DNA from: Aquabacterium sp.
Lineage (GTDB): Bacteria; Pseudomonadota; Gammaproteobacteria; Burkholderiales; Burkholderiaceae_C
DNA: 64,000 nucleotides
Direction of reading: 5' to 3'
Assembly (NCBI RefSeq): GCF_016234775.1
Contig: NZ_JACRAH010000003.1
Span: 62,001-126,000, forward strand
The notes under the pieces: model-generated
The model's database searches: none
What the model was told of the DNA's origin: nothing
What the model saw: only the letters and a program-made list of their open reading frames with translations
Shown: piece after piece, positions 9,353 to 48,464 of the stretch
How the letters are laid out: every line of letters begins with the position of its first letter
Numbering within the stretch: the stretch's first letter is position 1
Translations under genes and position numbers: made by a program

Positions 9353-10348
9353 TCATCGAATGTAGTGCACCTCGATCGTGGCGTGCACGATCTCTTCATG
9401 CACCTTCAAGGCCTCGCGGATCAAGGCAGGCGTCAGGGCCTCATCGCGCGTGACCACCGTCAGGGCGCATGAGTACACGGCCTTGCCCACCCGCCACACG
9501 TGCAGATCGGTCAGGTGGCTGTCCTCATGGGCAGCCAGCTCGGCGATCACCTCGCGGATCTCTTCCACCACCGGATGGTCCATCTCCCGGTCCAGCAGCA
9601 CCTTGCCTGTCTCGATCACCAGGCCCTTGGCCCACACCGCCACCAGCACGGCGCCCACCAGCCCCATCACCGGGTCCAGCCAGGACCAGCCGTACATCCA
9701 GCCGCCGATCAGCGCCAGGATGGCCAGCACGGAGGTGGCCGCATCGGCCAGCACGTGCACATAGGCCGACTTCAGGTTCAGGTCATGCTGATGCCCATGA
9801 TCGGCGTGGTGATGGTGGTCGTGACCGTGTTGGTGCCCATGCCCGTGATCATGCCCATGATGGTGATGCCCATGCCCCGCGTGATCGTGGTCGTGCACGC
9901 CACCCAGGATAAAGGCGCAGATCAGGTTCACGCCCAGCCCCAGTGCGGCCACGATCAAGGCCTCGCGGTAATGAATGGGCTCCGGCGTCAGCAAGCGCTC
10001 GACCGAGCCGAAGATCATCAGGCCTGCCACCCCGACCAGGAACACCCCACTGGCAAAGCCCGCCAGCACCTCGATCTTCCAGGTGCCAAAGGCAAAGCGC
10101 GGGTCCTTCGCATAGCGGCGCGCGGCCGCATAGGCAAAGGCGCTCAAGCCGATGGCCACGGCGTGCGAGCTCATGTGCCAGCCATCGGCCAGCAAGGCCA
10201 TGGAGTTGAACCACCAACCCGCCGTGATCTCGATGACCATGGTGGCCAGCGTGATCCACATCACCAACCTCGTGCGGGTCTCGGCCTGCTGGCTGCCCTC
10301 ATCGAAGACGTGGTCGTGGATCCATTCAGACAATTCCGTGTCTCTCAT
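9353..10348 (-). CDS. DmeF-like cation diffusion facilitator (divalent metal exporter)
   Basis: 331-residue CDF family transporter of the inner membrane. Six membrane segments are visible, with the TM2 metal-site motif DGWHMSSH, the TM5 motif HVLAD, and a long cytoplasmic loop between TM4 and TM5 containing about 21 histidines in an HDH/HGH pattern. DGWHM plus the long His-rich loop matches the DmeF (Co2+/Ni2+) subgroup, although CDF selectivity cannot be read safely from sequence. A soluble C-terminal domain follows. The start at 10348 is preferred over 10378, which lacks a ribosome-binding site. The gene is 33 bases downstream of the GDT1-like Mn exporter and therefore probably under the same Mn2+ riboswitch, suggesting that Mn2+ may be a physiological substrate or signal. 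Confidence 0.88.
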   Translation of the reverse strand: MRDTELSEWIHDHVFDEGSQQAETRTRLVMWITLATMVIEITAGWWFNSMALLADGWHMSSHAVAIGLSAFAYAAARRYAKDPRFAFGTWKIEVLAGFASGVFLVGVAGLMIFGSVERLLTPEPIHYREALIVAALGLGVNLICAFILGGVHDHDHAGHGHHHHGHDHGHGHQHGHDHHHHADHGHQHDLNLKSAYVHVLADAATSVLAILALIGGWMYGWSWLDPVMGLVGAVLVAVWAKGLVIETGKVLLDREMDHPVVEEIREVIAELAAHEDSHLTDLHVWRVGKAVYSCALTVVTRDEALTPALIREALKVHEEIVHATIEVHYIR

Positions 10349-10381
10349 ACCTGGGCCTTTTTTTGTGCCGATCGACATCGA

Positions 10382-10957
10382 TCAGGCGAACAACTTGTCG
10401 ATCTGGAGCAGCGTGAGCACACCCATCACGGCAAAGATGGCGGCGGCAATACCGTGCACCAGCTTCATCGGGATTTTCTCGGCAAACCGGTTGCCGACAA
10501 ACACTGCGGGCACATCGGCAATCAGCATACCCAGGGTCGTGCCCGCCACCACCATGAAGGGCGAGACATAGTGCGCGGCCAAGGCCACCGTGGCCAGTTG
10601 CGTCTTGTCCCCCATCTCAGCAAGGAAGAAGGTCACCAGCGTGGCGCCGAACACGCCCAGCTTATGGGCCACTTTGGTTTCTTCCTCTTCGATTTCATCG
10701 GGGATCAGGGTCCAAATGGCCATGCCGATGAAGCTCAAGCCCAGCACCCAGCGCATGGCTTGGGGTGACACCACCGAGGTGATCCAGGTGCCCAGGGCGC
10801 CCGCAAGACCATGGTTGACCAGGGTGGCAGCCAGGATGCCCAGGATGATGGGCACGGGGCGCTTGAAACGCGCGGCCAGGATGAAGGCCAGCAATTGGGT
10901 CTTGTCGCCAATTTCTGCCAGGGCGACCACGCCGGTCGATATGAGAAGGGATTCCAT
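10382..10957 (-). CDS. GDT1/TMEM165 (UPF0016) family Mn2+ exporter
   Basis: 191-residue inner-membrane protein with six predicted membrane segments and two copies of the family signature E-x-G-D-K-T: EIGDKTQLLAF near residue 15 and EMGDKTQLATV near residue 115. The two inverted-repeat halves are typical of the GDT1 family, whose bacterial members (MneA/MneP type) export manganese. The start at 10957 is chosen because the protein then begins directly with the first membrane segment, and AAGGA lies eight bases upstream. An upstream extension of the frame runs through the riboswitch and is not coding. It is the first gene of a minus-strand operon with the CDF transporter and the persulfide dioxygenase fusion. 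Confidence 0.9.
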   Translation of the reverse strand: MESLLISTGVVALAEIGDKTQLLAFILAARFKRPVPIILGILAATLVNHGLAGALGTWITSVVSPQAMRWVLGLSFIGMAIWTLIPDEIEEEETKVAHKLGVFGATLVTFFLAEMGDKTQLATVALAAHYVSPFMVVAGTTLGMLIADVPAVFVGNRFAEKIPMKLVHGIAAAIFAVMGVLTLLQIDKLFA

Positions 10958-11023
10958 CTGGAGGGTCCTTGGCTGGTGTGTACGCGTGACCATATACCGC
11001 CCACCAGCCGTGAAGCAGCACAT

Positions 11024-11165
11024 GGTCAGACGTCTTGCCAAGAAAAGGCCTGGGCCGATGATCAATGTGACCAGCCCGGGGCCGTAACCGCCGGCGCCAT
11101 GGCCCTATGGGGCCAATTGTGTTGACGCGGGCCGCCTCGTGACGAGGCGCAGCTACTCCCGAATG
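11024..11165 (-). ncRNA. yybP-ykoY Mn2+ riboswitch
   Basis: The minus-strand leader of the GDT1-like gene carries the recognisable elements of this riboswitch class: GGGAGTAGC at 11160-11152, a G/C-rich hairpin, the CGTCAACA motif around 11120-11127, a second helical arm, and the closing CTTGGCAAGACGTCTGACC segment ending near 11024. It lies 67 bases before the start codon of a UPF0016 exporter, the classic target of this element. In proteobacteria Mn2+ binding raises expression of the exporter by exposing the ribosome-binding site or blocking termination. I see no convincing intrinsic terminator between the element and the start codon, so translational control is more likely. Boundaries are approximate. 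Confidence 0.82.
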
Positions 11166-11440
11166 ACAGGCGACAGTGTACCAAAGCCACCACGCCGCCC
11201 CCCCCCGAGGGCAGGCATGCGTGGCCTGAAACCTGGCGGAAAACGGGCCGCACACGCAATCGCGCAGCGACATCCGCCACAGCCCCTCTCGATGGTGGAA
11301 ACCCACCTTGGGGGGATGCGAGCAGGCTGCCGGACGCATTCAATGGCGACCTGTCAGCACGGACCGGCGCCCTGACAGCACGCCACACCAACCCACCGCG
11401 CTGCCCCGTGCAACCCGATTTTCTTTTCCTGGAGATTCAC

Positions 11441-45905: not shown

Positions 45906-46490
45906 TCAGAACGCATCAAACTTGGTCAGGTGGATCTTCTGAGCCGCGTCGATGCGCTGCATGTAGAACTGCCAGGCGCCGCCCTGGCGATGTCCCACCA
46001 CCACGGCGCATTCGCCGCCCGTCGCGTCGTACTGTTCGCCTGGTGACACCCTGATCAGCAAGCCGCCACGCTGCGCATTGGCCAGGCAGGCGCCGTAATC
46101 CACCGAGCCGTCCAGACTGTTGTTGTGCTCGACGGTGGGCCGATCCGGTGAGCCATAGATCAGGAACTGGCAGCCTGTGAGCAGGTCGGTAAAGAACCAG
46201 TCGACATCCGAAGGCAGGGTCTGCCGATTGACATCATTGGGTTTGGCCGAAAGGAAGAAGCAATCGAGCTGGTGACTGAGCTTGCCCCAGCGCGAACGCA
46301 CCTGCAGATACACCGCGGGGTGGGGCTCGTTCGGTGCGGGCACCAGGTCCACCGCATAGTCGCCACTCGACAGGGCATTCGTGTTGTCCTGCTGCTTCTT
46401 GTAGAAGTAGTGGCTTTGCGTCTTGATGGCGTAGCGACGCAGGAAATCGTCGGTGTTGTTGATCAGCTTCTTGTTCAAACCGCCAGACAT
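45906..46490 (-). CDS. hypothetical protein (194 aa) downstream of hisC
   Basis: 194-residue soluble protein of unknown family. The start at 46490 has GGAG and gives MSGGLNKKLINNTDDFLRRY. It contains beta-rich segments (AVYLQVRSRWGKLSHQLDCFF, GGLLIRVSPGEQYD) and ends QRIDAAQKIHLTKFDAF. No catalytic motif is recognised. It follows hisC by 70 bases on the same strand and could be co-transcribed, though a functional link is unproven. Confidence 0.65.
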   Translation of the reverse strand: MSGGLNKKLINNTDDFLRRYAIKTQSHYFYKKQQDNTNALSSGDYAVDLVPAPNEPHPAVYLQVRSRWGKLSHQLDCFFLSAKPNDVNRQTLPSDVDWFFTDLLTGCQFLIYGSPDRPTVEHNNSLDGSVDYGACLANAQRGGLLIRVSPGEQYDATGGECAVVVGHRQGGAWQFYMQRIDAAQKIHLTKFDAF

Positions 46491-46560
46491 ATCGGGCTCC
46501 ACAGTGGATGACGTGAGCCGCACTGTAGCGACAGCCAACCGCCATGCCACCCGACAAAAG

Positions 46561-47622
46561 TCACGCCACAGCCAGCGCGGCCAGCAATCGCGCACATTGC
46601 GTGTCCGTGCCCACCGTGATGCGCAGGAACTGCTCGATGCGAGGCAGCTTGAACTGCCGAACCAGAATGGCCTGGTCCTTCAAGGCTTGGGCCTGTTGGG
46701 CCGCGTCGCGATCAGGATGCCGCGCAAAGACAAAATTGGCCGCGCTCGGCAGCACCTCGAAGCCCAGCGCACGCAGCCCCTCGGTCAGGCGCACCCGGCT
46801 TTGCACCACGCGCGAGCACGTCGCCCTGAAGTACGCATCCGCTTCAAAAGAGGCCTGCGCACCAGCCTGCGCCAGGCGATCCAATGGGTAGGAATTAAAG
46901 CAGCCCTTGATGCGCTCCAGGCCTTCGATCAACTCACCCGAACCCATGGCGTAGCCCACACGCAAACCCGCCAGGCCACGCGACTTGGACAGCGTCTGCA
47001 CCACCAGCAGATTGGGATGGTGCGCCAGCAGGCTCACGGCACTCTCGCCGCCAAAGTCCACATAGGCCTCGTCGATCAGCACGACGCGATCGGGCCACAA
47101 GTTCAGCAGACGCTCGATCTGTTCAAGCGGCAAGGCCATGCCGGTCGGCGCATTGGGATTGGCGATCACCACGCCGCCCACATCACCGCCAGGGCGGGCA
47201 TAGGCCTGCACATCGATGCTGAAATCCGCGTTCACCGGCACGACCTCGACAGCAATGCCGTAGAGCTGGGCATACACCGGATAGAAGCTGTAGCTCACAT
47301 CGGGCATCAGCAGCGGCAAGCCCTGGCGAAAGTAGGCCGCAAAAGCATGAGCCAGCACCTCGTCCGAACCATTGCCCACGAAGACCTGCTCGGCTTGCAC
47401 ACCATGGTGCGCCGCGATGGTGTCGCGCAGCGCCACCGCACCGGGATCCGGGTACCGGCACAAGCTGTCGGCATTGGCCTGGGCGATGGCGGCCAGCACC
47501 TCGGGTGCCGGGCCATAGGGGTTCTCGTTGGTGTTGAGCTTGATGAGCTCGGGCAGATCGAGCTGCTCGCCCGCCACATAAGGCTTCAACTGTGGGACCA
47601 GGGGGCTCCAGAATCGACTCAT
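46561..47622 (-). CDS. hisC: histidinol-phosphate aminotransferase
   Basis: 353-residue class I/II PLP-dependent aminotransferase that converts imidazole-acetol phosphate and glutamate to histidinol phosphate. It has [18 protein letters not shown] (155-161), the PLP-contacting Asp in LIDEAYVDF and Lys213 in [16 protein letters not shown]. In betaproteobacteria hisC is usually inside the large his operon; here it stands alone, preceded by a histidine-rich leader peptide and an attenuator terminator (47639-47663). This strongly supports a true histidine-biosynthetic function rather than an aromatic aminotransferase role. Confidence 0.93.
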
Positions 47623-47638
47623 GAAAAGGCCTCGCCAA

Positions 47639-47663
47639 TGAAAAAGGCGCCTTGCGGCGCCTT
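47639..47663 (-). terminator. his attenuator terminator upstream of hisC
   Basis: AAGGCGCC (47644-47651) and GGCGCCTT (47656-47663) form a perfect eight-base stem with a TTGC (GCAA on the minus strand) loop, followed on the minus strand by TTTTT. It lies between the histidine leader peptide stop (47701) and the hisC start (47622). In his attenuation this hairpin ends transcription when histidyl-tRNA is plentiful and is prevented when the ribosome stalls on the His codons. Confidence 0.82.
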
Positions 47664-47700
47664 CGGGTGTTGTCTGAGCTTGACTTGCTGCTTGATGTTC

Positions 47701-47802
47701 TCAAGGTCGTTGCAAGAAGAGCGTGCAGGCATGACCACGGCGCCATGGCAAAGCATGGTGATGGTGGTGATGCGACAAAGCGATCAAGGCCTGCACGTTC
47801 AT
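47701..47802 (-). CDS. hisL: his operon leader peptide with six consecutive histidines
   Basis: A 33-codon minus-strand frame starting at ATG 47802 encodes MNVQALIALSHHHHHHALP, then W, RRGHACTLFLQRP and TGA. The run of six His codons (CAT/CAC mixed) and one more His, placed about 40 bases before a terminator hairpin and 79 bases before hisC, is the classic layout of a histidine attenuator (compare E. coli hisL with seven His). The reading frame is too short for standard gene calling. A ribosome stalled at the His codons would favour an anti-terminator pairing and hisC transcription. The ribosome-binding site is weak (TGAGCCC). Confidence 0.85.
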   Translation of the reverse strand: MNVQALIALSHHHHHHALPWRRGHACTLFLQRP

Positions 47803-47828
47803 GGGCTCAGTATGGCACGGGTGGCAGC

Positions 47829-48149
47829 TCAGTAAGAGCTGCGGCCACCACGGTAGCCGCCGCCACCGTTGCCGCCACCGAAGCCGCCCGAAGGACGATC
47901 TTCCTTAGGACGGGCCAGGTTCACGACCAGGGCGCGACCGTCAACGGTCTTGCCATGCAGGCCGCGGATGGCGGCTTGGGCTTCTTCAGCCGAACCCATT
48001 TCGACGAAGCCGAAGCCCTTCGAACGACCGGTGTCACGGTCCATCATGACCTTGGCGGACATGACGCTGCCGTAGGCAGACATTTCTTGTTGCAGGCTGT
48101 CGTCGCGGACAGAGTAGGCCAGGTTGCCGACGTAGAGTTTGTTTTCCAT
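47829..48149 (-). CDS. RRM-domain glycine-rich RNA-binding protein
   Basis: 106-residue protein with one RNA recognition motif: RNP2 KLYVGNLAY at the start and RNP1 SKGFGFVEM at about residues 44-52, followed by a Gly/Arg/Tyr-rich tail (SGGFGGGNGGGGYRGG). Such proteins in beta- and cyanobacteria are cold- or stress-induced RNA chaperones. It lies 48 bases downstream of an IF-1 gene on the same strand. The start at 48149 is the usual family N-terminus MENKLYVGNL. The hisC leader begins just 26 bases after its stop. Confidence 0.92.
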   Translation of the reverse strand: MENKLYVGNLAYSVRDDSLQQEMSAYGSVMSAKVMMDRDTGRSKGFGFVEMGSAEEAQAAIRGLHGKTVDGRALVVNLARPKEDRPSGGFGGGNGGGGYRGGRSSY

Positions 48150-48197
48150 GATGGAATCTTTCAAGAGAGAAATGAGTGAGAGAAAAACCTGTGCGGA

Positions 48198-48464
48198 TCA
48201 GCGGTAAGGCCGTCGCGCAGGAATGGGCCCGCCACCCGTGCGGGGCTCCAAATGACGGAAAGTGATACGACCCTTGGACAGGTCGTAGGGAGAGAGTTCG
48301 AGCGAAACCTTGTCACCCGCCAGGATGCGGATGCGGTTCTTGCGCATCTTGCCGCCCGAGTAGGCGATGAGCTGGTGACCGTTTTCAAGCGTCACACGGA
48401 AACGGGCATCAGGCAGGACTTCGTCAACCTGGCCGCGCATTTCAATCAGATCTTCTTTGGACAC
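48198..48464 (-). CDS. infA: translation initiation factor IF-1
   Basis: 88-residue IF-1, slightly longer than the usual 72, with an S1/OB fold: [41 protein letters not shown], and [15 protein letters not shown]. The start is GTG at 48464, supported by AAGGA six to seven bases upstream. The extra residues are a C-terminal tail ([14 protein letters not shown]). Because a housekeeping infA usually sits near ribosomal protein genes in this group, this copy next to an RRM cold-shock-like protein is probably a second, stress-related infA. Confidence 0.9.

Follow-up and report, generated by a model that had tools for sequence, protein, structure and literature searches.

A candidate histidine leader-peptide attenuator upstream of a second, operon-independent hisC gene in Aquabacterium

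We analysed a window of 64,000 nucleotides from Aquabacterium sp. (the whole stretch of DNA presented above) that contains a hisC gene apart from the his operon. Gene order and relatives suggest a member of the Burkholderiales. On the minus strand the features follow one another in the order IF-1 gene, gene of an RRM RNA-binding protein, short reading frame with six consecutive histidine codons, hairpin with five T residues, hisC. The ATG of the short frame lies 26 bases from the end of the RRM gene (position 47829). An earlier note on this DNA had described a 33-codon HHHHHH leader, a hairpin and T5 in front of hisC; its coordinates and description proved right. For the positions of all features see Table 1.

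Table 1. Features of the hisC locus and of the proposed attenuator; positions refer to the window.
Feature	Position	Strand	Sequence or remark
IF-1 gene, upstream of the RRM gene	48198-48464	(-)	PF01176
RRM RNA-binding protein gene, upstream neighbour	47829-48152	(-)	PF00076, 76.8 bits; glycine-rich tail
Putative extended -10 element	47817-47809	(-)	TG-C-CATACT; tentative promoter assignment
Leader peptide ORF	47802-47701	(-)	MNVQALIALSHHHHHHALPWRRGHACTLFLQRP, 33 codons + TGA
Segment 1	47796-47789	(-)	GTGCAGGC; paired with segment 2 in the MFE structure without a stalled ribosome
Regulatory His codons, six consecutive	47772-47755	(-)	CAT CAC CAC CAT CAC CAT
Segment 2	47744-47723	(-)	GGCGCCGTGGTCATGCCTGCAC; from folding and alignment
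Inner GGCGCC, antiterminator strand	47744-47739	(-)	within segment 2
Terminator hairpin with T5 (segments 3 and 4)	47661-47641	(-)	GGCGCC-GCAA-GGCGCC + T5
Terminator, 5' arm	47661-47656	(-)	GGCGCC; followed by the loop GCAA
Terminator, 3' arm	47651-47646	(-)	GGCGCC
Terminator, T run	47645-47641	(-)	T5
Possible hisC ribosome binding site	47633-47630	(-)	GAGG; suggested by sequence
hisC paralogue (histidinol-phosphate transaminase), gene under the proposed attenuator	47622-46561	(-)	

Five CAY codons in a row were matched 14 times in the 4.27-Mb genome, corresponding to 10 distinct sites (L181 and L182 are one site), and the reversed control pattern gave no match. Each of the 10 was translated in the reading frame of its His codons. 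Six of the other nine lie in frames of 22-214 residues without a Met before the run and three in long frames of 261, 425 and 543 residues; no second leader-like site was found among the 10, considering ATG starts. Of these other sites, two overlap genes that we take to be accA-like and rpsK-like. The pattern GGCGCC-N3..5-GGCGCC-TTT occurs once in the window, which contains 96 copies of GGCGCC alone. The predicted fold of the 208-nt region is more stable than that of 198 out of 200 shuffled versions (z = -2.55). A consensus scan of positions 46400-48300 did not list the leader's terminator, probably because A-T pairs prolong the stem into the run of T residues. The Rfam model RF00514 (His_leader) gave no match at its gathering score in the window, nor at E ≤ 10 in positions 47560-47920.

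Another regulatory element was observed elsewhere in the window. A manganese riboswitch of the yybP-ykoY type (11040-11173, minus strand, 63.6 bits against a gathering score of 45) precedes the gene of a GDT1-family cation antiporter (about 10382-10966, minus strand, PF01169). A His-rich reading frame (9353-10378), which we take to be cation-efflux-like, adjoins the latter gene.

Six leaders, from the window and from related genomes, were folded from the AUG with the ribosome-covered bases removed. When the A site was placed on any of the first His codons modelled and the RNA ended before the 3' arm of the terminator, pairing of the inner GGCGCC to the terminator's 5' arm reached 0.91-1.0 in all six. 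Without a ribosome this antiterminator pairing amounts to 0-0.38, and the terminator of the full-length RNA reaches 0.99-1.0. At equilibrium, with a ribosome stalled at the first His codon and the whole terminator present, the antiterminator is favoured in G002, G021 and G025; the window leader (G000) is nearly even (antiterminator 0.546), and the terminator is favoured in G003 and G218 (0.99-1.0). In these last three leaders the equilibrium is not clearly on the side of the antiterminator, so that an attenuation model needs kinetic trapping there. Shuffling the stretch from the last His codon to the stop codon reproduced the stall pairing in 15-23 of 200 sequences and both states in 2-14 of 200, which makes the switch only moderately unusual for any single sequence. 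Covariation is weak, with 3 of 43 consensus pairs changing on both sides and an unfavourable term (+3.09); the GGCGCC arms are identical in all aligned leaders and thus give no covariation test.

The hisC type found in the window is carried by 13 of 42 genomes of the genus (E ≤ 1e-100). A leader lies directly before the gene in six of them (G000 and five further genomes), and the other seven (G028, G012, G360, G006, G357, G036, G011) contain no frame with three near histidines in the 450 bases upstream. A covariance model built from the six leaders (R1) detected a seventh with 191 bits in G027, a genome absent from the training set; this leader is located at a contig end, and the contig stops before hisC. 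Across the 42 genus genomes R1 gave these seven leaders with 124-205 bits, followed by a match of 34.3 bits. Nine R1 match loci in the genus were read, L219 among them; no leader was seen in the other eight, although L202 and L208 contain His-rich frames overlapping with other genes. In 399 genomes of the family, with six candidates scored per genome, R1 returned G000 (199.1 bits) and G218 (204.7 bits), and the others among the matches listed scored 38.9 bits or less. A search with the leader DNA in 299 family genomes gave G000 and one near-full match, G218. All seven leaders come from one genus, and within the limits of the R1 search the element seems to be restricted to a single part of that genus.

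We also inspected the regions upstream of 129 hisC relatives (450 bases, less at contig ends), a filter that would pass over leaders with fewer histidines. Frames with three near histidines were present in 13, and six of these are the leaders. The seven others (L041, L100, L112, L153, L160, L170, L173) were read as antisense frames of neighbouring genes or as frames lacking a fitting ATG. For the 110 family genomes with this hisC type the survey covered 31 upstream regions (30 loci and L019 of G011) and left out 79. Matches on plasmids (20 records) were all below 60% identity.

The seven leaders fall into two subgroups. Five (G000, G002, G003, G218, G027) have HHHHHH, 33 codons and an RRM gene upstream; the 18 bases of the window leader's His codons recur unchanged in the other four. 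The other two (G021, G025) have only HRHH, 30 codons and a lumazine synthase gene upstream (PF00885, 138.4 bits, in L010). These neighbours were judged by eye, with Pfam scans for G000 and G021. Since the upstream neighbour changes and leader and hairpin remain, the unit keeps with hisC. GGCGCC-N4-GGCGCC-TTTT follows the leader on its downstream side in 7/7, and hisC comes after it in the six genomes whose contig goes on. The columns that do not vary among the six aligned leaders include the inner GGCGCC, the two arms of the terminator together with T5, and the block GTGCCAYACTGRGSCCATG, in which three columns have two letters. The earlier note had asked whether the His run or the hairpin is lost in close relatives: the hairpin is kept in all seven, and the six-His run is present in five and represented by HRHH in two.

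These comparisons bear on the alternative in which the hairpin does no more than terminate the upstream RRM-protein gene in the usual way, the His frame being a coincidence. The RRM gene does end 26 bases before the leader ATG with no other terminator seen between, and similar GGCGCC hairpins are common in the family, as 28 of the 31 further partial DNA matches listed comprise the terminator only (query bases 157-209). However, leader and hairpin persist behind the lumazine synthase gene in G021 (where Pfam was used) and G025, and in every case the hairpin has a run of six His codons, or HRHH, ahead of it. We regard this explanation as very improbable. Transcription of the RRM gene may itself stop at the leader's terminator, and both terminator roles could hold together.

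The leader peptide itself seems, from its codon changes, to be free apart from the His codons. Its length is constant within each subgroup, the gaps of the alignment coming after the stop codon. The ten pairs of H6-type leaders differ at 89 codons, 12 of them synonymously and 77 non-synonymously; for G000 and G002 one of 11 changed codons is synonymous. This is what would be expected if the His codons and the RNA matter and the peptide does not. The inner GGCGCC lies within the reading frame in all seven leaders, in codon frame 1 in five and in codon frame 0 in two, and therefore its constraint looks like one on the RNA and not on the peptide. A histidine-rich functional small protein, for example a metal-binding one, would agree with the richness in histidine and with the 33 codons kept in five genomes. 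Against it stand the mostly non-synonymous changes, the two genomes with only HRHH, the lack of an NCBIfam match of the peptide at E 0.001, and the constant succession of leader, terminator and, where the contig continues, hisC. We consider such a protein extremely unlikely.

The HisC encoded in the window scores 300.9 bits with TIGR01141 (cut-off 276.55) and matched 19 solved sequences, of which the best is 3hdo, a histidinol-phosphate aminotransferase. The genome (4.27 Mb, 68 contigs) contains another hisC, 33% identical, beside hisG on contig C38, where the reading frames scanned are ordered murA, hisG, hisD, hisC, hisB, hisH, hisA, hisF. This cluster copy scores 310.5 bits and thus lies above the same cut-off. 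Its orthologue (79-100% identical) is present in all seven leader-bearing genomes, the neighbouring genes having been checked in G000. The his cluster of the own genome showed no His leader among the short frames of a 19-kb stretch (L147): three near histidines occur in nine frames below 90 residues, eight of them without a Met before the His part and the ninth on the other strand. By sequence comparison, the gene that the putative attenuator governs is a second, non-orthologous hisC copy and not the sole transaminase. Of the earlier note's interpretation, the his-type attenuator before a single hisC is well backed by the conserved leader, the terminator and the alternative fold predicted in the six leaders folded, but its suggestion that transamination becomes a separately histidine-controlled step is not supported, the hisGDCBHAF cluster, which the note had missed, having its own hisC with an orthologue in 7/7 genomes.

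The two copies differ in their rate of change. The cluster HisC is 97% identical to that of G000 in G002, 93% in G218, 92% in G003, 80% in G021 and 79% in G025; the corresponding values for the lone HisC are 80, 77, 78, 71 and 69%. As the lone copy is less identical in the same five genomes, it changes faster, which would suit an accessory role. In a HisC tree of 70 rows the six leader-bearing sequences form one clade with support 93/89, just below the star mark of 95/80; the tree contains a flagged long-branch join of L023 and L024, and the cluster row is a very long branch. A separate clade of the same hisC type from the same genus (L015, L149, L017, L150, L018; 100/100) has no His-rich frame upstream.

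Attenuation could be real and the paralogue nevertheless serve mainly outside histidine synthesis, as an aromatic or broad aminotransferase under histidine control. The relatives of the lone HisC in L019, L020, L022 and L023, however, come after a gene which we take to be hisD, the lone HisC passes the TIGR01141 equivalog cut-off, and a histidine signal fits a histidine enzyme. In favour of a broader enzyme are the operon hisC orthologue in 7/7 genomes, the faster divergence of the second copy (69-80% vs 79-97% identity to G000), and the lone hisC2 of M. tuberculosis, which resembles an aromatic aminotransferase (PMC3896937). On balance we think this unlikely.

The block GTGCCAYACTGRGSCCATG occurs at a fixed distance from the ATG in 6/6 aligned leaders and in the seventh. 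It includes a -10-like box, TG-C-CATACT, and the seventh base past its last T is the A of the AUG. This fixed spacing predicts a leaderless start: the sequence suggests that transcription begins at the leader ATG or only a few bases away from it. No sigma-70 promoter came out of a consensus scan of positions 46400-48300. In the RNAalifold structure, part of the box is paired with downstream columns, one pair being changed on both sides. Because of these two results a longer RNA is also conceivable, such as one that comes from the RRM gene.

The locus thus combines several codons for the end product in a short leader ORF, an intrinsic terminator between leader and structural gene, an antiterminator that a stalled ribosome is predicted to favour, and a structural gene of the same amino-acid pathway (hisC by TIGR01141). 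Based on the alignments and the folding results we hold it very probable that the element is a ribosome-mediated transcription attenuator which senses charged histidyl-tRNA and controls the second, operon-independent hisC, and we propose the following mechanism. When histidyl-tRNA is short, the ribosome would stall on the His codons of the 33-codon leader and cover segment 1 together with the 5' part of the leader. The inner GGCGCC would then capture the terminator's 5' arm ahead of the synthesis of the 3' arm, and RNA polymerase would read into hisC. When histidine is plentiful, the ribosome would reach the stop codon and segments 1 and 2 would pair. In that case the GGCGCC-GCAA-GGCGCC-T5 terminator would form and transcription would stop before hisC. 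The gene product would most likely be a histidinol-phosphate transaminase, serving as a starvation-induced isozyme beside the operon enzyme.

A more far-reaching version is speculative, and we give it a slim chance: a leaderless attenuator could make the non-orthologous HisC a starvation-only isozyme, the his operon being without such a leader, and the RNA of about 160 nt that termination leaves, with the AUG as its beginning, could persist and act in trans as a small mRNA or sRNA. Action in trans has been reported for rnTrpL.

The element would offer a naturally occurring example of one reaction catalysed by two differently controlled isozymes, by means of a simple one-pairing attenuator. As this type of leader is unrecognised by the Rfam His leader model, the annotation of such elements is probably incomplete. 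The usual picture of a histidine attenuator is that of a switch for the entire his operon, and proteobacterial attenuators were reportedly surveyed by Vitreschak and colleagues in 2004. A literature search, with subscription papers mostly outside its scope, yielded neither a leader before hisC in Burkholderiales nor an attenuator with a leader peptide that controls a second hisC where a his cluster already has one.

The arrangement resembles the enterobacterial his attenuator (hisL) in the run of His codons in a short leader, the terminator, the alternative fold and the histidine gene downstream. It differs in that one extra hisC and not the his operon would be controlled, in the longer peptide (33 or 30 codons, compared with seven His codons in an 18-residue peptide; PMC3896937), and in a single direct antiterminator pairing via GGCGCC, without a match to RF00514. 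Firmicutes His leaders, described before his operons of the Bacillus cereus group, Peptostreptococcaceae, Lutispora and Erysipelotrichales (PMC9413887), share the His-rich peptide, terminator and antiterminator and likewise do not match RF00514, whereas here the downstream gene is a lone hisC paralogue in a proteobacterium. The same paper reports a T-box before hisC in Natranaerobius, so that hisC has its own histidine-responsive RNA element there too; the T-box, however, senses tRNA directly without a leader peptide. In bacilli a His leader precedes hisZ and a hisS paralogue (PMC2965389), which is similar in placing a His attenuator on single paralogous genes, of the hisS family there and hisC here. 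Finally, in Sinorhizobium meliloti trpL (rnTrpL/peTrpL) the attenuator RNA begins at the AUG of the leader peptide (PMC7298713); such a start is known for that tryptophan system and predicted for the histidine element described here.
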